Positions 5,077 to 64,000 of a stretch of 64,000 nt of DNA are shown here, in pieces. The notes under the pieces are model-generated. The model had not been told where the DNA came from. It was given only the letters and a program-made list of their open reading frames with translations, and did no database searches. Within the stretch, counting starts at the first letter, position 1. Each line of letters starts with the position of its first letter. Where the stretch lies: assembly GCF_000430545.1 (NCBI RefSeq), contig NZ_AUMF01000009.1, positions 62,001 to 126,000 on the forward strand. Reading direction: 5' to 3'. The position numbers were made by a program, and so were the translations under genes. Origin of the DNA: Tenacibaculum ovolyticum DSM 18103. Lineage in GTDB: Bacteria; Bacteroidota; Bacteroidia; Flavobacteriales; Flavobacteriaceae.

Positions 5077-5925
5077 TTATTTATAATTATGGGTTCCTAA
5101 AAGTGATTCGTTTGAATTTAAAAATTGTTCGGTATACCTTTTTGTATTTTTACAAGCATCTTCTAAAGAAAGCTCTAATGCTAAATTAGCTGCCAATGTT
5201 GATGATAAAACACATCCACTACCATGTTTCTCAAAAACAGTATCGGATATAGGCGGAATATTCATTTTTACTATCTTACTATAGTATACTTCATCCCATC
5301 CTTTTTTATCTGTTCTATGACCTCCTTTTAAATAAACATTTGTTTTTTCTGAAATAAAGGCTATAGTTTCTTCTATATCCTTATCTGGAAATAACGCTTT
5401 TATTTCGTTGTAATTTGGTGTTATAAAATCACAATTATCTAATACTTGTTCGAGTGTTTTTAAATTTTGATTTGTATGAAATTCAAATCCTGCACTTGCT
5501 TTTAAAATTGGATCTACTACAATTTGTATTGTTGGATTTAATTTTCTCAACGTTTGAATTATAGCTAACAAAACATTCCAAGATTGAATAATTCCTATTT
5601 TTACTACTGAGATAGGAAAACGTTCAAACAATGTTTCAATTTGTGCTATAATTATTTGTTCATCTATCCAAACACAATTTTTAAAATCAACATCATTTTG
5701 AACAGTAACCGCAGTACATACCGACACACCGTATAAACCATGTGCCTCAAATGTTTTAATATCTGAAGTAATTCCTGCTCCGCTTGACGGATCTAAACCT
5801 GCAATGGTTAGTATGTAATTTTTAGTATTCAAATTATTTTTATTTAGTTCTCGACTGCGCTTAAACTGATAATTACATTTTAATTTTCTGAATAACTTAG
5901 TTTTATAAACATATTCTCGATACAT
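5077..5925 (-). CDS. thiD: Hydroxymethylpyrimidine/phosphomethylpyrimidine kinase (start uncertain)
   Basis: Phosphorylates HMP and HMP-P for thiamine synthesis. Ribokinase-like fold: YILTIAGLDPSSGAGI opens the core, VVDPILKAS is in the middle, LKGGH follows, and HGSGCVLSSTLAANLA is the ATP/catalytic loop. The first ATG (5925) lies inside an intergenic repeat, and residues 1-27 are encoded by repeat DNA that has no counterpart in ThiD. No other Met precedes the conserved core. A TTG at 5832 (Leu32, seven codons before AGLDP) is the likely ancestral start. Either translation starts in the repeat, giving a tagged ThiD, or TTG is used. The enzyme assignment is firm and the N-terminus is not. Confidence 0.9.
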   Translation of the reverse strand: MYREYVYKTKLFRKLKCNYQFKRSRELNKNNLNTKNYILTIAGLDPSSGAGITSDIKTFEAHGLYGVSVCTAVTVQNDVDFKNCVWIDEQIIIAQIETLFERFPISVVKIGIIQSWNVLLAIIQTLRKLNPTIQIVVDPILKASAGFEFHTNQNLKTLEQVLDNCDFITPNYNEIKALFPDKDIEETIAFISEKTNVYLKGGHRTDKKGWDEVYYSKIVKMNIPPISDTVFEKHGSGCVLSSTLAANLALELSLEDACKNTKRYTEQFLNSNESLLGTHNYK

Positions 5926-5967
5926 TTTTATTCCGTTATCATTTCATAAAAACACTCGAACTGACAG
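5847..5967. repeat. Composite palindromic repeat covering the apparent thiD start
   Basis: Two blocks can be seen: TTCTCGACTGCGCTTAAACT (from 5848) and a second unit from ATTCTCGATACATTTTTATT (5913) to CACTCGAACTGACAG (5953-5967). The second is the reverse-complement relative of 6724-6772, sharing TTCTCGATA, the TTATT/CGTT centre, CATAAA and CACTCGAAC. It contains the ATG at 5925. Confidence 0.65.
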
Positions 5968-5984
5968 CTAGAATTTTCTTTTAA

Positions 5985-6581
5985 TCAAACTAAGGAATCA
6001 AACTTATCTTTTATCTTCTTAAAACTCTCTACAGGATTTTCTGTATTCCAAACACCTCCTAATACTCCAATACCTTTATAACCTAGTTGAATGGTTTCAG
6101 CTATGGTTTCTATATTAATTCCTCCCATTCCAACAATTGGTTTATCAATATTTGTTACATTAAAACCTCTTCCTTCATATCCTTCTTTTGAAATAGATGA
6201 AAAAACTGGACTTAATAAATGATAATCAAATTCGATATCGCAAGCGGCTAATTCTTCTGGTTCATGAAAAGAACTACTCATTGTTTTTCCTAACATATTT
6301 AATCCTATAAAATATCGACTTCCGTTTTCTAAAGCATCTCGTCTTTTTTGTTCTTGAAAATGGATTCCTTTTAAATTGAATTCATTTGTTAATTCATGAA
6401 AATAATGAACAACTATTTTAGTGTGATGTTTCTCTGATATTTGATTTAAATAAGATACATGTTCTTCATAACTCTTAAATGGTTTTCTAAGATGATAATA
6501 TGCTAATCCTGCTTCAAATAATTGGTGTAGAATTACAATTTCGTTTTCTACATCTTTTTCTGGGGCAATAAGTACAATCAT
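5985..6581 (-). CDS. tenI: Second ThiE/TenI-family protein
   Basis: A 198-residue TIM-barrel protein of the thiamine-phosphate-synthase/TenI superfamily: YYHLRKPFKSYEEH replaces the VQLR strand, and GIHFQEQKR, YHLLSPVFSSISKEGYEGRGF and IVGMGGINIETI are the phosphate-site loops. TenI of Bacillus is a thiazole tautomerase; the shift from QLR to HLR and the SPVFSS loop fit the TenI/ThiE2 group better than ThiE. A tautomerase role or a second coupling enzyme are both possible. It lies between thiD and thiC, with repeat elements in both flanking spacers. The symbol is by family. Confidence 0.75.
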   Translation of the reverse strand: MIVLIAPEKDVENEIVILHQLFEAGLAYYHLRKPFKSYEEHVSYLNQISEKHHTKIVVHYFHELTNEFNLKGIHFQEQKRRDALENGSRYFIGLNMLGKTMSSSFHEPEELAACDIEFDYHLLSPVFSSISKEGYEGRGFNVTNIDKPIVGMGGINIETIAETIQLGYKGIGVLGGVWNTENPVESFKKIKDKFDSLV

Positions 6582-6689
6582 ATTAGTTTGATTTTAATAG
6601 CTATTAATTTTATACAAAAATAATCTAATTTATTATTGAAATGCTAGATTACTTCGTCGTTTCCTCCTCGTAATAACAGGTGTTTTTTT

Positions 6690-6830
6690 AGGTTAGGGAT
6701 TGTAGTGGCATCCTTTTGCTGTCTGTTCGAGTGAATTTATGTAGTAAAACGAAATAAATTTATATCGAGAACAAGCAAAAGATATAACGGAAAGCTCGAC
6801 TACGCCTTTTTTTTAAAGGCGTAGGAACCT
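6690..6830. repeat. Nested inverted-repeat element between tenI-like gene and thiC
   Basis: Outer arms: GGATTGTAGTGGCATCCTTT and GCAAAAGATATAACGGAAAG, pairing through CCTTTTGCT and AGCAAAAG. Inside their loop sits a second palindrome, TGTTCGAGTGAATTTAT (from 6723) against ATAAATTTATATCGAGAACA (to 6773). After it comes CTCGACTACGCC and a perfect palindrome CTACGCCTTT/AAAGGCGTAG (6800-6824). I read this as a dispersed repeat, possibly one repeat inserted into another. It fills most of the 259-base gap; I see no gene there. Confidence 0.65.
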
Positions 6831-6840
6831 CCTAATTATT

Positions 6841-8935
<2,095 letters not shown>

Positions 8936-52274: not shown

Positions 52275-53621
52275 ATGAAGATTATTATAGCCGGTGCTGG
52301 AGACGTAGGTTTTCATTTGGCTAAACTCCTTTCTTACGAGTCACAAGATACTTATGTGATCGATTTCGATGGCGAAAAGCTAAATTACATTAACAATCAC
52401 TTAGACGTTATTACTAAAAAAGGTGATGCTACTTCTATAAACTTGTTAAAAGAAATAGGTGTTGATTCTGCTGATTTATTATTAGCTGTTACTGAAAGTC
52501 AAAATACAAATTTCACAATATCAGTAATAGGAAAAGCTTTAGGTGTAAAAAAAACCATCGCAAGAATTAATAATCCAGAGTTTTTAAAGAATGATTGTAT
52601 TAATTTTAAAGATTTTGGAGTAGATTTCATGATTTCTCCTGAAGCCTTAGCTGCAGAAGAAATAAAATTACTTTTAAATCAATCTTCTTTTAATGATACT
52701 GTTGCTTTCGAAAACGGTGTATTTAATATTATGGGAACAACTCTCGGGTATAAATCTCCAATATTAGATTTAACAGTTAAGGAAGCTAAAGAAAAATTTA
52801 GTCTAGTCGATTTTATTACGATTGCAATAAAACGTGAAGGAATTGCTCAAACTATTATTCCTCGTGGAGACACAACCTATAAAATAAACGACCAAGTTTA
52901 TTTCTCTGTACCAAGTTATAGTATAGATAAATTACACCCCATTATTGGGAAAGAACAAGTAGAAATTAAGAATGTAATGATTCTTGGAGGTAGTAGTATT
53001 GGTCGAAAAACATCTAGAAGTCTTTGCAAAGATAATTTTAAAGTAAAATTAATTGAACGTAAAAGAGAAAAAGCATTAAATCTTGCTGAAGACCTAATAG
53101 ATACTTTAGTCATTCATGGCGATGGTAGAAACTTAGAGCTCTTAGAGGAAGAAAACATTAGAGAGATGGATGCCTTTATTGCTGTTACTGGCGATTCTGA
53201 AACAAATATTATGTCTTGTTTAGTTGCAAAATCGAAGGGTGTTAAAAAAACGGTTGCTTTAGTTGAAAATATGGATTACATTAATATTTCTCAAACTATT
53301 GGTATTGATACACTTATTAATAAAAAATTAATCGCTGCTAGTAATATTTTTCGCCATATACGTAAAGGAGAAATTTTAGCTTTAGCGAACTTACATAATA
53401 TTGATGCTGAAGTTTTTGAATTTGAGGTACAAGAAAGAGCTAAAGTAACATTAAAACCAATTAAAGAATTACGTTTTCCTAGAGAGGCTGTATTTGGTGG
53501 TGTTATAAGAGATGGAAAACCTCATATGTCTTTTGGTAATTTTCAATTACAAAGTGGTGACAAAGCAATTGTTTTTTGTTTACCTGAAGCAATATCAATT
53601 GTAGAAGATTTGTTCAACTAA
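52275..53621 (+). CDS. trkA: Trk potassium uptake regulatory subunit TrkA
   Basis: 448 residues, two RCK units. Rossmann N1 IIIAGAGDVGFHLAKLL (3-19) and N2 VMILGGSSIGRKTSRSL, each followed by a TrkA-C domain (about 145-225 and 365-448). It binds NAD(H)/nucleotides and gates the TrkH channel from the cytoplasmic side. Its stop shares one base with the trkH start. Confidence 0.96.
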   Translation: MKIIIAGAGDVGFHLAKLLSYESQDTYVIDFDGEKLNYINNHLDVITKKGDATSINLLKEIGVDSADLLLAVTESQNTNFTISVIGKALGVKKTIARINNPEFLKNDCINFKDFGVDFMISPEALAAEEIKLLLNQSSFNDTVAFENGVFNIMGTTLGYKSPILDLTVKEAKEKFSLVDFITIAIKREGIAQTIIPRGDTTYKINDQVYFSVPSYSIDKLHPIIGKEQVEIKNVMILGGSSIGRKTSRSLCKDNFKVKLIERKREKALNLAEDLIDTLVIHGDGRNLELLEEENIREMDAFIAVTGDSETNIMSCLVAKSKGVKKTVALVENMDYINISQTIGIDTLINKKLIAASNIFRHIRKGEILALANLHNIDAEVFEFEVQERAKVTLKPIKELRFPREAVFGGVIRDGKPHMSFGNFQLQSGDKAIVFCLPEAISIVEDLFN

Positions 53622-55120
53622 TGGAGAATCTTAATCTAAAACTAATTTATCGTTTTTTAGGAATAACAGCTATTCTTAATGGGCTATTTATGTGGCTTTC
53701 ATTACCTTTTAGCTTTTATTATGATGAACCTTCTAAATGGGGTATTTTAAGCGCAGGTATTATTACAATTGCTATAGGTTTAATTCTTTACTTTTTTAAT
53801 AAGCCTGATAATAAAAAAATTCAAAAAAAAGAAGGTTATCTTATTGTAACTTTAGGTTGGTTAATATTATCAATTACAGGAATGCTCCCATATCTTTTAT
53901 CTGGTAGTATTCCCTCAACAACAAATGCCTTTTTCGAAACTATTTCAGGTTATTCAACTACAGGATCATCTATCCTAACAGATATAGAGTCTATGCCTAA
54001 AGGAATTTTATTTTGGCGTAGCGCTACTCATTGGATTGGTGGTATGGGTATTATAGTACTTACCATAGCAATCTTACCTTTATTAGGTATTGGTGGAATG
54101 CAACTATTTATGGCTGAAGCTCCTGGGCCATCCACAGATAAATTACACCCGCGTATTACAGATACTGCTAAACGATTGTGGCAAATTTATGTATTACTAA
54201 CTATTGTTCAGTTTTTGCTATTAAAAGTAGCGGGTATGAACTGGTTTGATGCTCTTAATCATGCAATGGCTACTGTTAGTACTGGTGGTTTTTCGACTAA
54301 AAATGCAAGTGTTGCTCATTGGAATGGAGCTCCTATGATACAATATATTATCATATTTTTTATGTTTATTGCTGGTACAAACTTCGTACTTACTTACTTT
54401 GCTTTAAAAGGAAAAATAAGAAAAGTAATACAAAGTGAAGAGTTTAAATATTATTTATTTGGTACCTTAATTATATCAGCTGTTGTAGCGACAATGATTA
54501 TTTTTTATCAAGATCCTTTATTACACACCACTATTAAACACCCAATGGTTTATGGTAAAGTTGAAAGTGCTATAAGACATTCTCTTTTTTCTGTAATATC
54601 TGTAATTACCACTACTGGTTTTGTTACAGCCGATTTCACTATGTGGAGCTTTTTTGTAACCGCAATTTTCTTTTCTTTATTTTTCTTAGGTGGTTCAGCT
54701 GGTTCTACATCTGGTGGCGTAAAAATTGTTAGACACATTGTAATGCTAAAAAGCAGTTTTTTAGAATTTAAAAAATCATTACACCCTAATGCCATTATTC
54801 CTGTTCGTTATGATGGTAAAGCTGTAAAACAAACCATTATATTCAACATACTTTCTTTCTTTGTTTTATACATGTTAATTTTTGTTATAGGTACAGTAAC
54901 ACTTGCTTTTTTGGGATTAGACTTTTATTCTGCTCTAGGCGCTTGTGCCTCTTCTCTAGGTAATATTGGTCCTGCATTAGGTAGCGTAAGTCCTGTTAAT
55001 AATTTTAATCACTTATCTACAGGAGCTAAATGGTTTTGCTCTTTTTTAATGTTAATTGGTCGTTTAGAACTTTTTACAGTATTAATTTTATTCACTCCAT
55101 TTTTTTGGCGTAAAAATTAA
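53621..55120 (+). CDS. trkH: Trk potassium uptake channel subunit TrkH
   Basis: 499-residue membrane protein with four pore (M1-P-M2) units. Selectivity-loop segments can be seen as SGYSTTGSSIL, ATVSTGGFST, VITTTGFVTAD and ASSLGNIGPALG, and the intramembrane gate loop as GGSAGSTSGG. It imports potassium together with TrkA. The gene order trkA-trkH with a TAATG overlap implies coupled translation. Confidence 0.96.
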   Translation: MENLNLKLIYRFLGITAILNGLFMWLSLPFSFYYDEPSKWGILSAGIITIAIGLILYFFNKPDNKKIQKKEGYLIVTLGWLILSITGMLPYLLSGSIPSTTNAFFETISGYSTTGSSILTDIESMPKGILFWRSATHWIGGMGIIVLTIAILPLLGIGGMQLFMAEAPGPSTDKLHPRITDTAKRLWQIYVLLTIVQFLLLKVAGMNWFDALNHAMATVSTGGFSTKNASVAHWNGAPMIQYIIIFFMFIAGTNFVLTYFALKGKIRKVIQSEEFKYYLFGTLIISAVVATMIIFYQDPLLHTTIKHPMVYGKVESAIRHSLFSVISVITTTGFVTADFTMWSFFVTAIFFSLFFLGGSAGSTSGGVKIVRHIVMLKSSFLEFKKSLHPNAIIPVRYDGKAVKQTIIFNILSFFVLYMLIFVIGTVTLAFLGLDFYSALGACASSLGNIGPALGSVSPVNNFNHLSTGAKWFCSFLMLIGRLELFTVLILFTPFFWRKN

Positions 55121-55633
55121 CCTTCCTTTCCTTAAGTTTTTTAACTTCTCCTACCTCCATTTTACAGAAATCGTAAATACTTTACAGCGACTATATAATT
55201 TTAGGTGTTTTTTAGACAAAAAACAGAATACATTTATTCTAAAATAACTTTCTAGTAATGTTATATTTTATCTAATTTTTAGATGACTAAAAAATTAGAC
55301 AAAATTCAACTTCACAAAAAAAGCCTCAAACTTCACAAAAATTAAAATTAATCACTTAAAAAAATTTTCTTTGTATTGAGAACAAAATATAAGAGTCTAC
55401 ACCTATTCCTAAAAAAGAAACACTTAAACCTCAATCTCCCCCATTTAAGTGTTCTTTACAAGAAAAAACAAAGCCTCTTGTTATCTTTGAAAAGAGAACT
55501 TAATAAAAGTAAATATATTCAAATAGCCCGTAAGTAATTGATTTAAAGTTAAAAACAAATATTTACACTAATTGTTTAATGCTTTTTTTATTAAACTGTA
55601 AAACGAAACATTAACTACTAAACATTAACTACT
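55121..55633 (+). other. 513-base gene-free region upstream of the tail-collar gene
   Basis: Very A/T-rich. A perfect 10-bp stem AACACTTAAA / TTTAAGTGTT (55419-55453) may be a distant trkH terminator. A TATCTTTG box (55482-55489) without a clear -33 element is the best promoter candidate for the gene at 55634. Just before the start codon, CATTAACTACTAAA is followed by a second CATTAACTACT, a direct repeat. No gene seen. Confidence 0.45.
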
Positions 55634-56200
55634 ATGGATCCATTTTTAGGACAAATCGTATTATTCGGTGGGAATTTTGCACCAAGAGGCTGGGCATTAT
55701 GTGAAGGTCAATTATTACCAATTTCGCAATACTCTGCTTTATTTTCAATTTTAGGGACAATTTACGGAGGAGACGGAAGAACAACTTTTGCTTTACCAGA
55801 TTTACGTGGTAGAGCTGCAATTAGTTCAGGTCGTGGACCAGGATTATCTGATCGTAGGTTAGGATCAAGAAGCGGACAAGAAGTTCATACTCTAACAACT
55901 CTTGAAATGCCTTCACATAATCACCTTACTCAAAACAGCATGAAAGTAAGTTCACAAGATTCGACTAAAGCAACTGCAACGACAAATTCGTCAATTGCGA
56001 CTCCAGGCTCACCTGGAGGTAGAGGGTTTGATTCTACAATGGGGTTCAATGATGTTACACCAGATATTTCTTTAAACCCTACTTCAAACAGTGTTACTGT
56101 TTTAAATAACGGTGGTAATCAAGCGCATAATATTATGCAGCCTTATTTAACTACAAATTATATTATTGCTTTACAAGGAGTTTTCCCTTCAAGAAATTAA
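55634..56200 (+). CDS. Phage tail-collar domain protein (microcystin-dependent/Mdp-like)
   Basis: 188 residues. The N-terminal half is a clear tail-collar domain: MDPFLGQIVLFGGNFAPRGW, LCEGQLLPISQYSALFSILG, YGGDGRTTFALPDLRGR. The family ending is also present: MPSHNHL and QPYLTTNYIIALQGVFPS. Such proteins are common as chromosomal single genes (MdpB-like) outside prophages; the role is probably secreted or surface-bound but not established. No signal peptide and no other phage genes nearby. It is followed by a terminator and a convergent gene. Confidence 0.9.
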   Translation: MDPFLGQIVLFGGNFAPRGWALCEGQLLPISQYSALFSILGTIYGGDGRTTFALPDLRGRAAISSGRGPGLSDRRLGSRSGQEVHTLTTLEMPSHNHLTQNSMKVSSQDSTKATATTNSSIATPGSPGGRGFDSTMGFNDVTPDISLNPTSNSVTVLNNGGNQAHNIMQPYLTTNYIIALQGVFPSRN

Positions 56201-56216
56201 GATCTTAAATAATAAC

Positions 56217-56253
56217 AAAACACTCAATAATTTTAAAATTACTGAGTGTTTTT
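56217..56253. terminator. Bidirectional terminator at the 56.2-kb convergence
   Basis: ACACTCAATAATTTT / AAAATTACTGAGTGT stem (one mismatch) with A and T runs on both sides. It overlaps the last codons of the methyltransferase-like gene. Confidence 0.85.
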
Positions 56254-57237
56254 CACATTCCATTTAGGGATTTTTTTTGTGACATAACCTAACTTATATG
56301 ATGATTCATTCACTGAATATAAAGACTTAACGCAATAAGGATTTGTTATTAACGATTCTCCTTTACCAATATAAACATCATCAAAAACTCTTATTTCAGT
56401 ATAAATACAAATATCAGGAGTTTTTTCAAAATATTTATCAAAAACAATATAATCTGATTCAAAGCTAAATTCATTTTTAGTTTTTTTAATATTTTTGGTT
56501 ATCGAAAATAAACCTTTAAATTCTTTATCGTTAATATATTCTTCATCAAGAACTACATTATTACCAAAACAATTTTCTTTAGCTAAAAAAGAATTTCTAG
56601 TTGACAATTTAATTTCTTCAGGAACTAAAACACCTCCTTCAGATAGTTGTGCAACTAAGTTTTGTGTTATTGAAATTTGAGGTTCGTTAATTAAAGCTTT
56701 ATCCATTGTTTCAGTTATCACAACATGCAATGAGTCTTTTTTATTGTGTACATATTTCGTTGCATCTGTTAAGCAATACTCTTTTATATATTTTTCATAA
56801 TTTAAATACTTAATAATTTTCTTTACTGAAATCATTGACGCCTCATGTATATCAATTAATACAATTCTTATTTTTTTTGAATCATAATAAGACAATAAAG
56901 GTATTATTAAAGTCCCTAAAGGTCCACACCCCGCATACACAACCTCTAGTACTTCATCAACAAATTTCTCCTTCGTACTATTAATAGCTTTATAAACTCC
57001 TTTAATAAAACGAGCTGTTCTAATATAATCATACAAACAATCTTTAGCGTGTCTAGGCGATAGAGCAATCCCCCCATTAACTTCTAACTTTGTCTTATTT
57101 AATTCTTCGGATGAAACTTTTCTAAAAATGTTTTCATAAAAACAAGATAACAACTTAACCGAGTTAATTTCTTCTTTTTCAGTTTTTGATGCAAGTAACA
57201 ATTTAGTTATTTCATTTAAATTTTCTTTAATATTCAT
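56239..57237 (-). CDS. SAM-dependent methyltransferase-like protein
   Basis: 332 residues. A class I methyltransferase core is suggested by motif I VVYAGCGPLGTLIIPLL, an acidic post-I strand RIVLIDIHE, and motif IV VVITETMDKALINEPQ. The TETMD...NEPQ segment recalls the double-Glu loop of protein-arginine methyltransferases, and the C-terminal beta part (NNVVLDEE, SLITNPYC) could be their barrel. N-terminal helices precede the core. No close family recognised; the substrate may be a protein or peptide. It lies between the tail-collar gene and the T9SS protein. Confidence 0.6.
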   Translation of the reverse strand: MNIKENLNEITKLLLASKTEKEEINSVKLLSCFYENIFRKVSSEELNKTKLEVNGGIALSPRHAKDCLYDYIRTARFIKGVYKAINSTKEKFVDEVLEVVYAGCGPLGTLIIPLLSYYDSKKIRIVLIDIHEASMISVKKIIKYLNYEKYIKEYCLTDATKYVHNKKDSLHVVITETMDKALINEPQISITQNLVAQLSEGGVLVPEEIKLSTRNSFLAKENCFGNNVVLDEEYINDKEFKGLFSITKNIKKTKNEFSFESDYIVFDKYFEKTPDICIYTEIRVFDDVYIGKGESLITNPYCVKSLYSVNESSYKLGYVTKKIPKWNVKNTQ

Positions 57238-57430
57238 TATTAAAATTTAATTGACATTAATAATTTAGTCCACTTTTTTAAGACTACCTAAACAAAGTAT
57301 TAATAAAAGTTAACAAAAAAAATGTTTTAACTAAAAATAAAGTCTTTTTATACCTAAAAAATCAATGTAGAAAACGCTCATAACACCAAGAATCACATTT
57401 ATACCTCTTTTTATAACAAATATACATAAG

Positions 57431-57463
57431 TTTGAATTTTGATTAAATAAAAGCATATATTTG
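57431..57463 (+). promoter_or_regulatory. Promoter of the T9SS-sorted repeat protein
   Basis: TTTG (57431-57434), 21-base spacer, TATATTTG (57456-57463), followed by the ATG 28 bases later. The spacer is one or two bases longer than usual. The rest of the 254-base divergent gap shows no gene. Confidence 0.6.
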
Positions 57464-57491
57464 ACAGTTAACTACTTAAAAAACAAAGCAA

Positions 57492-60400
57492 ATGACACAA
57501 AAAACTACTTTTTTAACATTTAAACATCTTCCTGTATTTGCAGTGTTGTTGTTTTTAAGCTTAGTAAGCTTAAAAACAAGTGCACAAACTACAGAAGCTT
57601 TTGAAGATGAAACTGTTGGCCTAAAAACATTTTCAGATAACGGACAAGCTTTTACGATTATTGATGGCTCTGGTGAAACTACCTATGATATAGAAACTTT
57701 TGCTGGTGGTGGATGGAACGGAACTTCTGGTGACAATAATTTTATTGATAATACTGGAGGAAGCCCTGGAAATAATGATGGCTCTTCTTTCACAATTAAA
57801 ACTACCGACGGAACCGATATAACAATTAAAAGTTTGTATTTATTTGTTTCTAATAGAGCTGTCAATGGTCCTGCTTCAACAACGTTAACTTTTACTGGAA
57901 AAAAAGACGGAACTACCATTTACACAATAACAAAAAGTTCAGGAATTATTAATGGGGCGGATTTCACCCCTAATAATGGTTTTACTTTTATAGACTTTTC
58001 TTCTGAAGGAGGGACAGATAACTCTAATAATAATATTGATGAGTTAATTATTTCAGCAACAGGTAATGCTGATTATTTAGCATTAGATGCATTAACTTGG
58101 GCACTTGCTCCTGTTGATGCAACTGCACCTCGTATTACAAGTATTGTTCGTCAAACACCAGCTACAAGCCCAACTAATGCAGATGCATTAACATTTAGAA
58201 TTACCTTTGATGAAAATGTTCAAGGTGTAGGAGCTGCTGATTTTACTATTACTGGTGCTTCAGGAGTTTCAATAGGCGTAGTTGGTTCAAACGCAATATA
58301 TGATGTTACCCTTTCGGGAGGAGACCTTGCTTCAGTAAACAGTACAATTACCTTAGGATTTGCAGGCGGACAAAACATTACAGATATTTCAGGTAATGCA
58401 TTAACTAATTTAACACCAACAGGAACAAACAACAATACTTTCGTATTAGATAATCAAGCACCACTTATTAGTAGTATTGCTCGTCAAAGCCCTACAACAA
58501 GCCCAACAAATGCAGATGCTTTAGTATGGGATATGACTTTTGATCAAGCAGTAGCGAATGTGGATGCAGCTGATTTTGCAGTAATTGGAACTACAGGTAC
58601 AATTACTTCGGTAACTAACCCAAGTGGAAATGTCTATCGAGTAACTGCTTCAGGTGGAGATTTAGCTGGATTAAATGCAACTGTTACTTTAGGATTTGCT
58701 GGTGGTCAAAATATTGCGGATGCTTCAGGTAATACATTAACTAATTTAACGCCTACAGGTACAAATAACAATACTTTTGTAGTAAATAATACTGCACCAC
58801 GTATCAACAGTATAGCTCGCCAGAGCCCAACTACTAGCCCAACAAATGCAGATGCTTTGGTATGGGATGTTACTTTTGATCAAGCAGTAGCGAATGTGGA
58901 TGCAGCGGATTTTGCAGTAATTGGAACTACAGGTACAATTGCTTCGGTAACTAACCCAAGTGGAAATGTCTATCGAGTAACTGCTTCAGGTGGAGATTTA
59001 GCTGGATTAAATGCGACCGTTACTTTAGGATTTGCTGGTGGTCAAAACATTGCGGATGCTTCAGGCAATGCATTAACTAATTTAACGCCAACAGGTACCA
59101 ATAATAATACTTTTGTAATAGATAATACTCAACCACTTATTAATAGTATTGCTCGTCAGAGTCCTACAACAAGCCCAACAAATGCAGATGCTTTAGTATG
59201 GGATGTAACTTTTAATGGAGCAGTAGCGAATGTAGATGCTTCAGATTTCACTGTAAGTGGAACTACAGGAACAATTGCTTCGGTAACTAACCCAAGTGGA
59301 AATGTCTATCGAGTAACTGCTTCAGGTGGTGATTTAGCTGGATTAAATGCAACTGTTACTTTAGGATTTGCTGGTGGTCAAAACATTGCTGATGCTTCAG
59401 GTAATGCATTAACAAATTTAACACCAACAGGAACAAACAACAATACTTTTGTAGTAGACAATACACCTCCCGTTTATACTTGGACAGGAACCACTAACAA
59501 TGATTGGGGTACAACTTCAAATTGGGACTTAAATTCTGTACCTACTGCAACAGCTGATGTAGTTATTCCTAGTGGTTTAATGATGTATCCAACAGCTAGC
59601 TCTGCTGTAACATTTAATTCATTAACAATTAACTCTGGAGCAAGTTTTATTCCTAATAGTACAACAACAGGTGCTGTTACTTATAAAAGAAACTTACCTA
59701 CAACAGGTGATTGGTATTTAGTTTCTTCACCTATTGCAAATGAAACATTACAAAATGTAATAGCAAATAATACTTTTGCAACAGGTACTGCTCCTGGTAA
59801 TATCGGTATTGGTCTTTATGAAAATAGTAATGCTTCTCAATGGGCATATGTAAACGCAAGTAGTACAGGTAATATAATTCCAGGAATAGGAATATCGGTA
59901 CAATTAGCTACTGCAGGTGATATATCTTCTACAGGTACTGCTTTAAACACTTCTAACGTAATATTTGGTGTATCAACAGGAACTGTTACAAATTTCAACT
60001 TACTTGGTAATCCATTTACTGCCTTTATAAATTCTGCAACGTTTGCAACTACAAACACAGGAGTTTTAACTGAAGAAACTATTTGGTTATGGAATGGAAC
60101 AGCGTATGTAACATACAATAACGCTAGTCCTATAGAAGTTGCTCCAGGACAAGCATTTTTTATAGAAGCTTCAACTAACGGTGCTATAACCTTTGCAACT
60201 GCCAATAGAAGTCATCAAAATACTGACACATTTATGAGAGAAGCTCCAAAATCTACTTTTGAATTATCTGTAGAAGAAGGAACTAATAAGAGTGCTACTA
60301 AAGTATTTTATGCTGATAATAAAACTACTGGTTTTGATAATGGATACGATTCTAAGATGTTTGGAGGTACAGATTACAAATTCAAAGTATATACTGAATT

Positions 60401-60935
60401 AGTTTCTGATAGCAAAGGTAAAAAATTAGCGATTCAAACTTTACCGAATCAAAATCTTGAAACAATGGTTATACCTGTAGGTTTAATTGCTGAAGCTGGT
60501 AAGAAAATTACCTTTTCTGTAAAAGCACAAAATCTACCAGATAATACTAATGTATTTTTAGAAGATAAATTTAATAATACTTTAGTCAATATTTCTAAAG
60601 AAAATCATTCAGTAACTTTAAAAAGTGATTCTAAAGGTACTGGTCAATTCTACATTCACACAAGTGCAAAGAACTTAGAAGATATTGATATTACAAAAGA
60701 TTTACAAAATGTAAGCATTTATAAATCGGCTAATAATAGCTTAACTGTTGCTGGTTTACAAACAGATAAAGCTTCCGTAAATGTGTATTCAATTTTAGGT
60801 AAAAAAGTGATTAGTACTGAACTTAAATCAACAGGAGTTCATGTAATTCAGTTACCTAAAACTGCTGCAGGAGTTTACATTGTTGAATTAAACTCTAGTT
60901 TAGGTAAAATTAGTAAAAAAATTATTTTAGAATAA
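57492..60935 (+). CDS. Large secreted protein with Ig-like repeats and T9SS type A sorting domain
   Basis: 1147 residues. Signal peptide ending KTSA (about residue 31); residues 32-210 are a beta-rich domain with many Asn/Gly/Asp. Four tandem Ig-like repeats of about 112 residues (about 212-658) each read SPTNADAL, FTI/FAV, SGGDLA, TLGFAGGQNI and SGNALTNLTPTGTNNNTFV. A TWTGTTNNDWGTTSNWD module and a beta-sandwich region follow; the end (about 1070-1147) is a T9SS sorting domain, VNVYSILGKKVISTEL...GVYIVELNS...KKIILE. It should be exported by Sec and anchored or released through T9SS, probably acting in adhesion. The 56-residue gene follows 14 bases later on the same transcript. Confidence 0.88.
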   Translation: MTQKTTFLTFKHLPVFAVLLFLSLVSLKTSAQTTEAFEDETVGLKTFSDNGQAFTIIDGSGETTYDIETFAGGGWNGTSGDNNFIDNTGGSPGNNDGSSFTIKTTDGTDITIKSLYLFVSNRAVNGPASTTLTFTGKKDGTTIYTITKSSGIINGADFTPNNGFTFIDFSSEGGTDNSNNNIDELIISATGNADYLALDALTWALAPVDATAPRITSIVRQTPATSPTNADALTFRITFDENVQGVGAADFTITGASGVSIGVVGSNAIYDVTLSGGDLASVNSTITLGFAGGQNITDISGNALTNLTPTGTNNNTFVLDNQAPLISSIARQSPTTSPTNADALVWDMTFDQAVANVDAADFAVIGTTGTITSVTNPSGNVYRVTASGGDLAGLNATVTLGFAGGQNIADASGNTLTNLTPTGTNNNTFVVNNTAPRINSIARQSPTTSPTNADALVWDVTFDQAVANVDAADFAVIGTTGTIASVTNPSGNVYRVTASGGDLAGLNATVTLGFAGGQNIADASGNALTNLTPTGTNNNTFVIDNTQPLINSIARQSPTTSPTNADALVWDVTFNGAVANVDASDFTVSGTTGTIASVTNPSGNVYRVTASGGDLAGLNATVTLGFAGGQNIADASGNALTNLTPTGTNNNTFVVDNTPPVYTWTGTTNNDWGTTSNWDLNSVPTATADVVIPSGLMMYPTASSAVTFNSLTINSGASFIPNSTTTGAVTYKRNLPTTGDWYLVSSPIANETLQNVIANNTFATGTAPGNIGIGLYENSNASQWAYVNASSTGNIIPGIGISVQLATAGDISSTGTALNTSNVIFGVSTGTVTNFNLLGNPFTAFINSATFATTNTGVLTEETIWLWNGTAYVTYNNASPIEVAPGQAFFIEASTNGAITFATANRSHQNTDTFMREAPKSTFELSVEEGTNKSATKVFYADNKTTGFDNGYDSKMFGGTDYKFKVYTELVSDSKGKKLAIQTLPNQNLETMVIPVGLIAEAGKKITFSVKAQNLPDNTNVFLEDKFNNTLVNISKENHSVTLKSDSKGTGQFYIHTSAKNLEDIDITKDLQNVSIYKSANNSLTVAGLQTDKASVNVYSILGKKVISTELKSTGVHVIQLPKTAAGVYIVELNSSLGKISKKIILE
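58125..59465 (+). repeat. Four in-frame tandem repeats of about 336 bp
   Basis: Units begin near 58125, 58458, 58794 and 59130 (333, 336, 336 and 336 bases). Units 2-4 are nearly identical at the DNA level over long stretches (e.g. GTAACTAACCCAAGTGGAAA and GTAACTGCTTCAGGTGG recur unchanged), while unit 1 has diverged. The repeat is whole-codon, so copy number can change without frameshift. Confidence 0.93.
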
Positions 60936-60949
60936 TACAATATAGCTTT

Positions 60950-61120
60950 ATGAAAAAACAAACTCAAAATAAAAGTCAAGACATCTCTAGAAAAGAGGCG
61001 TTAAAAAAAATAGGAGGTTACGGTAAATACGCTGCATTAACAGCCCTAGGAACCTATTTAATTTTAAACCCACAAAAAGCGCAAGCACAAAGCCCTGCTG
61101 CTCCAGGTGGTGGATTTTAA
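60950..61120 (+). CDS. 56-residue exported mini-protein, candidate precursor peptide
   Basis: A short gene 14 bases after the T9SS protein. It starts MKKQTQNKSQDISRKEALKK, then a hydrophobic stretch YAALTALGTYLILN (27-40), a cleavage-like AQAQ (44-47) and a tiny tail SPAAPGGGF. The SRKEALK segment ahead of the hydrophobic core resembles a Tat signal (SRRxFLK) with Lys for the second Arg, though ordinary Sec export is possible. After cleavage only about ten residues would remain, ending in three Gly and Phe. It is the last gene before a strong terminator; the next genes are a PqqD/kinase fusion and a nucleotidyltransferase. A modified-peptide precursor is a hypothesis. Confidence 0.7.
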   Translation: MKKQTQNKSQDISRKEALKKIGGYGKYAALTALGTYLILNPQKAQAQSPAAPGGGF

Positions 61121-61140
61121 CATATAACTATTCTCTAACA

Positions 61141-61173
61141 ACAAACCCTCGGCCTCCCGAGGGTTTGTTATTT
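61141..61173 (+). terminator. Terminator after the mini-protein gene
   Basis: Perfect 12-bp stem ACAAACCCTCGG / CCGAGGGTTTGT with a 4-base loop and a T-rich tail, 20 bases after the mini-protein stop. Confidence 0.92.
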
Positions 61174-61270
61174 TAATGATGTTACAATACTATAAACACT
61201 TAAAAAACATATTTCAATTAAAAGATAAAAAAACAGTTTAAAGTATATTAATTATTTATTTTTACTGATT

Positions 61271-62377
61271 ATGATAATAAAACAAATAGGTAATAAAAAG
61301 GTTGTCTGGTTCAAAGACACCAATGAATATATAGTTATTGAACCACTCATAGCAGACGCACTATCGCTATTATATCACAAAACTGATAAACAAGAAATTA
61401 TCTCTAAGATATTTAGTCAAATAGATATACCTTATAAAGAAGCTGAAAACTTAATATCTGATATTGAAAACTTATTAAACACTCATAATTTCACAAAACA
61501 AGAATTAGCTCCTGTTTCAAAAGTGAAACATTTTGAATACGAAAAGTATTATAAAATAAATGACATCATTTTTAAAGTCTGTTATTTATCTGAATTTGAA
61601 TTTTCTTTAGTACATCCAAAATTTACACATTTAGAAGTTGAAGCCACATTAAGTAGCAACCACCTTTTTGAAGTTTATAGTAATACCGATTTAATTACCT
61701 TTTCAATTAACAATACTATTATTGGAACATGGGCTCTTAGTGATGTTCATTTTTTTCAAGGGAAGTTCTCTATGAAGATTACTGAATTAATGCACCACAA
61801 ACCTGAAGATGAATGGTTAGGTGTATTTCATGCCTCGGCTGTGAGCAATAATAAGGAATCAATATTATTCTTAGGAGATTCTGGTAATGGAAAAAGCACA
61901 TCTTTAGCTTTATTACAAGCAAATGGCTTTACCTGTTTAGCTGACGACTTTGTTCCTATTGATGCTAAAAAACAAGAAGTATATAGTTTTCCTTCAGCTA
62001 TTTCTATTAAAAAAAATAGTTTAGAAACTTTACTTCCTATATACCCTGAACTAAAAACTTCAGCTGAATATCATTTTAAAAGGTTAAATAAAATTGTAAG
62101 ATACCTACCTACAAACAACATCAATTATCAATCAAAAAAGCCTTGTAAAGCATTAGTTTTTATTAAATACAAAAAAGACAGTGATCTAGTTGTCGATAAA
62201 ATATCTAATATTAAAGCCTTTGAACAGTTAGTTCCTGACTCTTGGTTGTCTCCAATGCAAGAAAATGTTGAAGTTTTCTTAAATTGGTTCTCAAGCTTAC
62301 CTTGTTACCAACTTACCTATTCAGACAATTCTAAAATGATAACAACTGTTTCGAAAATCTTTAATGATGAACTATAA
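61271..62377 (+). CDS. PqqD-like / HPr-kinase-like fusion protein
   Basis: 368 residues. Residues 1-75 look like a PqqD domain, the RiPP precursor recognition fold (VWFKDTNEYIVIEPLIADALSL, a helix, then AENLISDIENLL). Residues about 180-345 are an HPr-kinase-like P-loop domain: FHASAV (His187), Walker A GDSGNGKST (202-210), and CLADDFVPID (Asp225-Asp226). HprK-type kinases of this kind occur in peptide clusters such as lasso-peptide loci. No HPr/PTS genes are nearby, so a sugar-PTS role is unlikely. It overlaps the next gene by 14 bases. Kinase activity and the peptide link are inferred. Confidence 0.8.
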   Translation: MIIKQIGNKKVVWFKDTNEYIVIEPLIADALSLLYHKTDKQEIISKIFSQIDIPYKEAENLISDIENLLNTHNFTKQELAPVSKVKHFEYEKYYKINDIIFKVCYLSEFEFSLVHPKFTHLEVEATLSSNHLFEVYSNTDLITFSINNTIIGTWALSDVHFFQGKFSMKITELMHHKPEDEWLGVFHASAVSNNKESILFLGDSGNGKSTSLALLQANGFTCLADDFVPIDAKKQEVYSFPSAISIKKNSLETLLPIYPELKTSAEYHFKRLNKIVRYLPTNNINYQSKKPCKALVFIKYKKDSDLVVDKISNIKAFEQLVPDSWLSPMQENVEVFLNWFSSLPCYQLTYSDNSKMITTVSKIFNDEL

Positions 62378-63440
62378 AGAAACTTTATTTTTTGTTGGGA
62401 AATGTTTAACAATTACTCATGAAAAACACAATCGTGACTTAGTTGAACAAGAATTAAAATCTAATACTGTAAACTGGGATAATGTTGTTAAATTAAGCAC
62501 TAGTCATTATGTTTTCCCTACACTATACTGCAATTTAAAACGAGCAAATTTTCTAGACTACTTACCCGAAGATTTGGTTACTTACATGCAACATATTACC
62601 GATTTAAATCGCGAAAGGAATGAGCAGATTATTAAAGAAGCAAAAGAGATAAATGAACTATTACTTTCTTATAATATAATCCCTATTTTTTTAAAAGGTA
62701 CAGGTAATTTACTCGAAGGTTTATATGAAGATGTAGCTGAAAGAATGGTTGGTGACATTGATCTTTTATTTGAACAAAAAAACTGTACAAGTGCTTTTAG
62801 AATACTTCAAGAAAATGGTTATACACATAAAGTCTCAGAGCTATTTAACGATCATAGGCATTTACCTAGAATAACACATGCCAAAAAAATAGCAGCTATT
62901 GAAATTCATAAACAAATGTTACGGATAGAAAAGTCTTCCTTTTTTAATCATAGCTCTATTAAAAACAAATTACAGACTATTAATAACACTACTTTTTTAT
63001 CTTTCTCTGATCAAATTAAACTAACAGTCTATTCCAAACTCATTAATGATGATGCATATTTAACTAAAAAAATAAACCTTAGAGCTGCTTACGATGTTTT
63101 TTTACTTGATAAAAAACTTGAAACAAATTCCATTATTCAAGATACCAAACTATTTAAAGAATTAAATGCTGGTTTAGAGCTATACAATACAATACTTCCT
63201 AGTTTTAAAAATATTGAATTCAAATCAACCAAGTCTAGTAAGAAATACTTAAAAAAATATTTAAAAAACTTAAACAATAGTTTTTATAAAAATATAAAAG
63301 CTACTTTTCTAAAGTATTACATTTTCTATAAAGACAGAATTGTAATAATATTTAAAGCTTTTTATAAAAAATCTTATTTATTATTTGTTTGGTCTAAAAT
63401 AACTGATTACAATTGGTACAAAAGAAAAATGGGGGGTTAA
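62364..63440 (+). CDS. NTP_transf_5-type nucleotidyltransferase-like protein
   Basis: 358 residues from the ATG at 62364 (a second ATG at 62367 is equally possible). Family marks of the uncharacterised nucleotidyltransferase group (PF14907 type) are IPIFLKGTGNLLEGLY (106-121), RMVGDIDLLF (128-137; metal-binding Asp131 and Asp133) and the later AIEIHKQM. The C-terminal 100 residues are basic and Lys/Tyr-rich. Such proteins sit beside PqqD and HprK-like genes in various peptide and surface-polymer clusters. The substrate is unknown. It overlaps the kinase gene, indicating coupled translation and joint function. Confidence 0.8.
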   Translation: MMNYKETLFFVGKCLTITHEKHNRDLVEQELKSNTVNWDNVVKLSTSHYVFPTLYCNLKRANFLDYLPEDLVTYMQHITDLNRERNEQIIKEAKEINELLLSYNIIPIFLKGTGNLLEGLYEDVAERMVGDIDLLFEQKNCTSAFRILQENGYTHKVSELFNDHRHLPRITHAKKIAAIEIHKQMLRIEKSSFFNHSSIKNKLQTINNTTFLSFSDQIKLTVYSKLINDDAYLTKKINLRAAYDVFLLDKKLETNSIIQDTKLFKELNAGLELYNTILPSFKNIEFKSTKSSKKYLKKYLKNLNNSFYKNIKATFLKYYIFYKDRIVIIFKAFYKKSYLLFVWSKITDYNWYKRKMGG

Positions 63441-64000
63441 ACTAAGTTTTTAACCTCATTAAAATCTAAACCTCCATAATTTCCAGAGCTCATTAATAAC
63501 AAAGCAGTACTATCTAAATTCTGATTAAATAAAAACTCTTTAAATGCTATTGGGTTTGTATAAATAATTAAATTATCACGTTCAAAAGCACTTGCTATCT
63601 GTGCTTCAGTGACTTCTTCTAACTGTTTTATTTTCACTGCATGCGGTGAATAAAATACTACTGCCTTATCAGCTTTATCTAAGGCTCCTTTATATTCAGC
63701 TAAGAACTCAGCATTTAAACTACTATATGTATGTAACTCTAAACAAGCTAAAACAGTTCTCTTATCGTATTGTTTTTTAACAGCAGTTGTTGTTGCTTCA
63801 ACTTTACTAGGACTATGAGCAAAATCTTTAAAAATCACAGTAGATTCATTTTCTGCAATTTTCTCTAAACGCTTACTTGCTCCCTTAAAACTAGCAATAG
63901 CTTCATAAAATTCATCTTCATCAATACCCATATGCTGACAAATCCACTTAGCACCTGCTAAATTCTGTAAGTTATGGTCTCCAAAAATTTCTAGAGGTAA
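63437..64000 (-). CDS. mpl: Murein tripeptide ligase Mpl, C-terminal part (5' end outside window)
   Basis: The frame is open to the window edge; the residues before the Met at 63931 (GDHNLQNLAGAKWICQH) are classic Mur-ligase sequence, so the gene begins beyond 64000. The visible 187 residues are the C-terminal Mur ligase domain: FKGASKRLEKI, VIFKDFAHSPSKVEATTTAVK (the DFAHSP signature of Mpl rather than MurC), and LELHTYSSLN. It recycles cell-wall L-Ala-D-Glu-meso-DAP onto UDP-MurNAc. Its stop and that of the convergent upstream gene share the palindrome TTAA at 63437-63440. Confidence 0.9.
   Translation of the reverse strand, partial: LPLEIFGDHNLQNLAGAKWICQHMGIDEDEFYEAIASFKGASKRLEKIAENESTVIFKDFAHSPSKVEATTTAVKKQYDKRTVLACLELHTYSSLNAEFLAEYKGALDKADKAVVFYSPHAVKIKQLEEVTEAQIASAFERDNLIIYTNPIAFKEFLFNQNLDSTALLLMSSGNYGGLDFNEVKNLV

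Follow-up and report, generated by a model that had tools for sequence, protein, structure and literature searches.

A possible RiPP-like phosphopeptide system tied to one class of T9SS-secreted proteins in Flavobacteriaceae

What is a 56-residue peptide doing between the gene for a large protein exported by the type IX secretion system (T9SS) and two genes for a kinase and a nucleotidyltransferase-like protein, of the kinds that act on ribosomally synthesized and post-translationally modified peptides (RiPPs)? The question is raised by a locus of Tenacibaculum ovolyticum DSM 18103 (NCBI RefSeq assembly GCF_000430545.1, contig NZ_AUMF01000009.1, positions 62,001 to 126,000 of the forward strand), and we call this whole stretch of 64,000 nucleotides, whose own numbering we use, the window. 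We favour, with moderate confidence, the explanation that these genes form a RiPP-like system whose phosphopeptide product serves a single class of proteins secreted by the T9SS. This explanation draws on genes, folds and conservation, from which we infer both the chemistry and the contact with the secreted partner.

A preliminary description of this DNA had proposed that the peptide belongs with the two enzyme genes, and across genomes the association is tight. In 199 Flavobacteriaceae genomes (198 genera, 165 genomes near-complete), the peptide occurs in 20, the kinase (E<1e-14) in 20 and both in 19, while PF14907, the family of the third gene, is found in 19 of the 199, 18 of them kinase genomes and the other a 31.1-bit match in genome G058. 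When only near-complete genomes are considered, peptide, kinase and PF14907 fall in the same 15 of 165. The joint occurrence of this gene set is far from chance (Fisher p 1.4e-21 for peptide versus kinase, a value that ignores shared ancestry). A profile search of the 199 genomes for the peptide added none at more than 20 bits; peptide matches under that score, which occur in 8 genomes, are left out of the counts, as are weak kinase matches in G084, G089 and G141 (E 9.7e-4 to 1.2e-8), of which G084 and G141 are near-complete. Among the 20 kinase genomes, 15 have the peptide gene immediately in front of the enzyme genes; the others have it at an unlinked site or on a separate contig, or, in the case of G048, it was not found. 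Across the phylum, with about four first-look candidates scored per genome, the kinase profile gave five full-length matches in 395 genomes (five genomes, all Flavobacteriaceae) and six kinase-domain-only matches outside that family.

All three genes of the preliminary description are present as open reading frames (ORFs) in the window, and together with the upstream T9SS gene and the domains inside them they are laid out as follows.

57492-60935, plus strand: partner gene, encoding an exported protein of 1147 residues with repeats of about 112 residues and a T9SS type A sorting signal (Por_Secre_tail PF18962 and TIGR04183).
59979-60653, plus strand: partner domain of about 230 residues, preceding the sorting signal, of the class paired with the peptide (profiles A4 and A5).
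60950-61120, plus strand: precursor-like peptide of 56 residues, with residues 1-47 as leader and S48-F56, at 61091-61117, as core (ORF, profile search, conservation and ratio of nonsynonymous to synonymous substitution rates, dN/dS).
61140-61169, plus strand: intrinsic terminator between peptide and kinase, with 13 pairs, a 4-base loop and a T-rich tail (terminator scan).
61271-61504, plus strand: RiPP recognition element (RRE) domain, kinase residues 1-78, modelled as three strands and three helices (AlphaFold2 model; lasso B1 RREs are the best matches).
61505-62377, plus strand: kinase domain of the HprK/phosphoenolpyruvate carboxykinase (PEPCK) fold, residues 79-368, with P-loop G202-S209, H187, D225 and D226 (NCBIfam, model and alignment).
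62364-63440, plus strand: PF14907 nucleotidyltransferase-like protein of 358 residues with a KG...R..GDxD motif (Pfam match, and motif in relatives).

The partner gene ends 14 bases before the peptide gene, and the RRE-kinase gene (61271-62377, 368 residues) overlaps the PF14907 gene by 14 bases. The kinase had been placed immediately after the peptide; the order stands, but 150 bases intervene and hold the strong intrinsic terminator. The scan found 2 terminator-like sites in 400 bases where 0.1 are expected, the second being weak and on the minus strand, and similar hairpins lie 3' of the peptide in several relatives. The terminator suggests a division into two units, partner with peptide and kinase with PF14907 gene. 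Tenacibaculum haliotis, T. soleae and Polaribacter are among the named relatives, which agrees with a window from Tenacibaculum or its vicinity.

What kind of peptide is this? Across 19 loci its leader (I12-Q47) is 72% identical and its core 55%, with kinases at 35%, nucleotidyltransferases at 33% and the N-termini of 17 partners at 25%. Such conservation is higher than would be expected of a plain signal peptide, and this stretch, which carries (S/T)RKEA...GKYAALTA..GT, looks like a recognised leader. All 44 distinct peptides (46 minus two truncated copies of one peptide) have a serine, Ser48 in the window, directly behind an AxA-like site, mostly as AQAQS or AQASS; F or W follows the serine in 42 of 44 and a PG/GG-type element is present in 42 of 44, the core taking the form S-x-x-P-G-x-(F/W) over about ten residues. 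In 10 pairs of five peptide genes dN/dS is 0.06-0.35, a mark of purifying selection. These figures bear on the plainest explanation of the locus, namely that the small ORF is a mere remnant of the T9SS gene that resembles a signal peptide, with the kinase as a housekeeping HprK-like regulator. The sequence is indeed short and signal-like, and the kinase is distantly similar to HprK, but the low dN/dS, a leader conserved twice as well as the kinase and the RRE-like domain on that kinase speak against such a picture, which the co-occurrence in the same 15 near-complete genomes contradicts, and we consider it very improbable.

How the peptide might leave the cell is a separate matter. Export by the twin-arginine (Tat) route, suggested by a signal that had been called Tat-like, is rejected in that form, as a twin arginine occurs in 0 of 44 peptides. 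TatC tells nothing about peptide export, being nearly universal: 195 of 199 genomes have it, including all 165 near-complete ones. At one locus (L069, genome G013, 5680-7456) two peptide genes have long tails that depart from the usual core of ten residues, and PGKPGKP repeats occur in one of them.

A recognised leader raises the question of what recognises it, and the N-terminus of the kinase is the natural candidate. In the model of the whole kinase (368 residues, mean predicted local distance difference test, pLDDT, 88.4), the fold of residues 2-72 consists of three strands and three helices. This part was then modelled alone, because PEPCK structures filled the fold search made with the whole kinase, and chains of three lasso B1-leader complexes took Foldseek ranks 1-6 (best E 1.3e-3), with ThcOx, a sactipeptide enzyme and PqqD further down, mixed with unrelated chains. 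By VIA the domain superposes on lasso B1 5v1u_A with Z 9.8 (73 residues, 2.3 Å) and on the sactipeptide enzyme with Z 8.6 and 8.1, so that the RRE rows span Z 9.8-8.1; ribosomal proteins appear at ranks 9-19 (Z 6.4-6.8), after the RRE rows and PqqD 5sxy. As modelled, the kinase N-terminus has the RRE/PqqD fold and is fused to an HprK/PEPCK-fold kinase, and the fusion of PqqD-like and HprK-like domains that had been proposed is right on this structural evidence.

The kinase domain itself appears catalytically equipped. Its best-matching family model is HprK_rel_A (TIGR04352, NCBIfam), which all 16 relatives also match; the window protein scores 58.6 bits over residues 185-362 against a cut-off of 200 and is not a member. 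The HprK_rel_A family is found in a cassette with a PqqD-like protein. By fold, residues 79-368 resemble PEPCK (Z up to 14.4) and HprK (2qmh_A, Z 11.1, 121 residues, 2.6 Å), and a sequence search of the PDB aligned the P-loop half only, with HprK at the top followed by ABC transporters and other P-loop proteins. H187, G202, K208, S209, D225 and D226 are invariant in 16 of 16 kinase relatives. A split near residue 290 divides the kinase reading frame into two matches in G040, L046 and L053, and reflects either a sequencing error or a real break.

The third gene had been assigned to NTP_transf_5, and this identity is borne out: the 358-residue protein matches PF14907 with E 1.5e-32 and 113.6 bits (curated cut-off 31.2) and is a member of the family, whose KG...R..GDxD-type motif is kept in 25 of 25 relatives. 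In genome G055 the PF14907 gene is on a contig other than the kinase's, and a gene starting 4 bases after that kinase (L077:1270-2157) has what looks by eye like a sugar-nucleotidyltransferase-like N-terminus.

Why should such a set of genes sit behind a T9SS gene? The 1147-residue partner carries a T9SS cargo sorting domain (PF18962, 27.1 bits, cut-off 27; TIGR04183, 33.4 bits, cut-off 23), and its gene holds a 336-base tandem repeat at 58348-59464. A profile of the last 330 residues of 16 partners has 23 matches in the window's genome, four of which cover the roughly 230-residue domain in full, and a peptide gene follows directly on 4 of these 4. In seven further genomes behind the named loci, where adjacency was read by eye from coordinates, leaving aside a fragment in G584 and, in G583, six matches of the weak class, a peptide follows 19 of 20 full-length partners, making 23 of 24 in eight Tenacibaculum and Polaribacter genomes. 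Across the 199 genomes, strong-class partner domains occur in at least 22, among the matches listed, where a short fragment could be missed: every one of the 20 kinase genomes and, in addition, G066 (80% complete) and G121 (99%). The strong class comprises matches of about 0.73 or more bits per aligned position, a cut set after the gap was seen, the nearest below being 0.63 (G161). At E<=1e-6 the same profile reaches a broad, weaker family of relatives in 121 of 199 genomes, many of them without the peptide system.

A second group of nine loci is arranged otherwise, with the peptide gene in front of the kinase at a distance of -1 to 49 bases. Several genomes of this group have more partners than peptides, among the matches listed, at ratios of 9:1 (G157), 6:1 (G045) or 3:1 (G069 and G097), and the stretches fetched around the extra partners contain no further peptide ORF. 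The pairing with one domain, together with many partners per peptide, makes the peptide look like a shared factor for a domain class and not a by-product of one gene. The link to a T9SS domain class, the satellite peptide copies within the genome and the genomes elsewhere with one peptide and many partners all go beyond the preliminary description.

The same pairing could be explained if the peptide were a membrane-anchored adaptor, whose leader docks the RRE-kinase so that kinase and nucleotidyltransferase modify the partner's domain of about 230 residues before export. Both the pairing of partner domain and peptide and the genomes with many partners and a single peptide would suit such an adaptor. 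Yet the invariant serine, the PG/GG-type element and the aromatic residue of the core exceed what a mere anchor needs, short precursor peptides are the usual clients of RREs, the N-termini of the partners resemble (by eye) signal peptides of their own, and the modification would need an unfolded partner. We think the adaptor unlikely, though worth keeping in view.

We instead propose that the modified substrate is the peptide. In the RiPP-like system that we favour, the RRE of the kinase would bind the conserved leader, a step to which the modelled fold and the conservation both point, and the fused HprK-type kinase would phosphorylate the invariant Ser48 behind the AxA-like site. Phosphorylation of this residue is suggested because the catalytic residues are intact and because related gene sets contain the kinases LppK, PadeK and PsmK. 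In pseudomycoidin biosynthesis PsmK phosphorylates a serine and PsmN, annotated as a nucleotidyltransferase, puts a hexose on the phosphorylated residue (PMC9266682). By analogy with this described activity of PsmN, the PF14907 enzyme may extend the phosphate with a sugar or a nucleotide. The peptide would be exported via its hydrophobic leader, and a host signal peptidase would cut at the AxA-like site, freeing about ten residues. Given the genetic pairing, the modified peptide may then serve the partner domain as ligand, cap or linker, with one kinase presumably serving several peptide copies per genome and, in some genomes, one peptide accompanying many partners. A bolder version, which we hold only tentatively, is that the decorated (phospho-, sugar- or nucleotide-bearing) decapeptide is a built-in part of the cell surface and not a diffusible product: an obligate partner, cap or linker of one T9SS domain class, perhaps even an acceptor for joining such proteins.

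Several observations weigh against this proposal. Some concern distribution: G136 (84% complete) has the peptide and no match to the kinase or the partner domain; G048 (82%) has kinase and partner and no peptide was found; G067 (87%) and G151 (82%) have the kinase and no PF14907; G121 has a strong-class partner (G121:C1:474734-475426, L173) and no match to peptide, kinase or PF14907; and at 5 of the 30 loci whose sequence extends beyond the kinase, the PF14907 gene is not its neighbour. Others concern the RRE assignment. The best Foldseek E-value is modest, with unrelated chains at ranks 10 and 12, two methyltransferases (Z 7.0) come level with PqqD 5sxy (Z 7.1 by VIA), and the model of the lone domain has pLDDT 78 and a predicted template modelling score (pTM) of 0.60. 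No PqqD family is among the Pfam and NCBIfam matches listed for the window kinase, nor among the best 25 of 38 and 25 of 88 Pfam and NCBIfam families for 16 relatives, and a profile-profile comparison with four PqqD-like proteins gave a probability of 49.6% (E 1.7e-4, from a single comparison). The YxxPxVLxHQxIxFETxxS leader motif of the LPP system, to which LppK belongs and whose YxxP type is shared by lasso precursors, is absent from these peptides (PMC13381572). Finally, no dedicated leader peptidase or exporter was recognised in the cassette, from gene lists inspected by eye with no family search. Taken as a whole, the earlier interpretation is borne out in part: of the two outcomes named as able to refute it, no genomic association and no PqqD/RRE fold, neither came about, whereas its Tat signal is lost.

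The surroundings of the locus offer some history. TrkA-like, TrkH-like, kinase and Mur-ligase-like genes are arranged alike in the window (52275-63931) and in a Polaribacter metagenome-assembled genome (L093:5960-11611, read by eye), which suggests an old, vertically inherited enzyme locus. At L093 partner and peptide are absent between TrkH and kinase, and the PF14907 gene does not adjoin that kinase. The orphan peptide of G136 (G136:C1:11099-11230, L078) has no T9SS gene directly upstream. In the window, three genes upstream of the peptide, a 188-residue protein with a phage tail collar domain (PF07484) is encoded at 55634-56200.

RiPP enzymes are mostly known for diffusible natural products. 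Here, at one locus after another, enzymes of this kind keep company with one T9SS domain class, and the core peptide is conserved; if our proposal is true, this would give phosphopeptide RiPPs their first concrete partner and T9SS protein display a new step. We know of no ribosomal-peptide step in the anchoring of T9SS cargo on A-LPS in Porphyromonas. A connection between the peptide system and that anchoring is speculation, the likeness consisting in the surface fate of T9SS cargo (PMC13086638). The gene set is not described in the literature searched, a coverage outside which most subscription journals fall. A survey of 2,680 Flavobacteriaceae and Weeksellaceae genomes names RRE-containing clusters and Tenacibaculum lanthipeptide clusters, and the words 'kinase' and 'lasso' are absent from the part of it available (PMC10734526).

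How, then, does the locus compare with what is known? The nearest described system is LPP of Bacillota, with which it shares a short precursor with conserved leader, an RRE, an HprK-like kinase, and an NTP transferase (alike by name, PF14907 membership being established for the window protein) (PMC13381572). The LPP set has no macrolactam cyclase, and none is present among the window neighbours scanned. In LPP, LppK adds phosphates to Ser3 of the core AQSNWK, the leader is removed by an SpI-like peptidase, which is inefficient as long as the precursor is unphosphorylated, and deletion of the NTP transferase made no change in the study's host (PMC13381572). In both systems a serine stands close behind a signal-peptidase-type site, AQS there and mostly AQAQS or AQASS here. 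The likeness of this set to LPP and paeninodin-type clusters (PMC13381572) invites the view that the product is a linear RiPP akin to LPP, a phosphopeptide secreted as a signal or an antimicrobial, with the T9SS neighbour as a mere carrier gene. However, even at unlinked loci the peptide goes with one and the same partner-domain class, its core is conserved and not diversified, and fifteen loci viewed by eye, with no family search, show no recurrent exporter or protease gene next to the cassette; we think this view improbable, somewhat more so than the adaptor. LPP clusters have a dedicated SpI-like (SipW-type) peptidase and an MsbA-like transporter, neither of which was recognised here in by-eye gene lists with no family search. 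Unlike in LPP, the RRE is here fused to the kinase, the hosts are Flavobacteriaceae, the genes lie beside T9SS cargo where those of LPP often lie in capsule loci, and precursor copies are scattered. LPP and paeninodins are stated to be restricted to Bacillota, and the roles of the phosphopeptides are called unknown (PMC13381572).

The lasso peptides paeninodin and pseudomycoidin offer a second comparison, since there too an HprK-type kinase and a nucleotidyltransferase (PsmN) act on a precursor serine, guided by an RRE (B1), although that serine is C-terminal and the one here internal (PMC9266682). Of the six kinase-domain-only matches outside Flavobacteriaceae, two fall in lasso sets (L213, with PqqD, Transglut_core3 and Asn_synthase; L211, with PqqD and Asn_synthase) and one in a lasso-like set (L212, with PqqD, Transglut_core3 and PF14907). 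The lack of lasso cyclase and protease had been taken to place our locus in a different class. The protease part holds, with the Transglut_core3 (B2) gene in 0 of 15 system genomes; the cyclase part holds for the window neighbours scanned, where, as in the locus gene lists read by eye, there is no Asn_synthase-type cyclase, the genomes themselves not having been searched for one. With its fused RRE-kinase, missing lasso protease, other leader motif, scattered precursors and tie to T9SS, the system looks like a variation on peptide modification by RRE, HprK-type kinase and nucleotidyltransferase.

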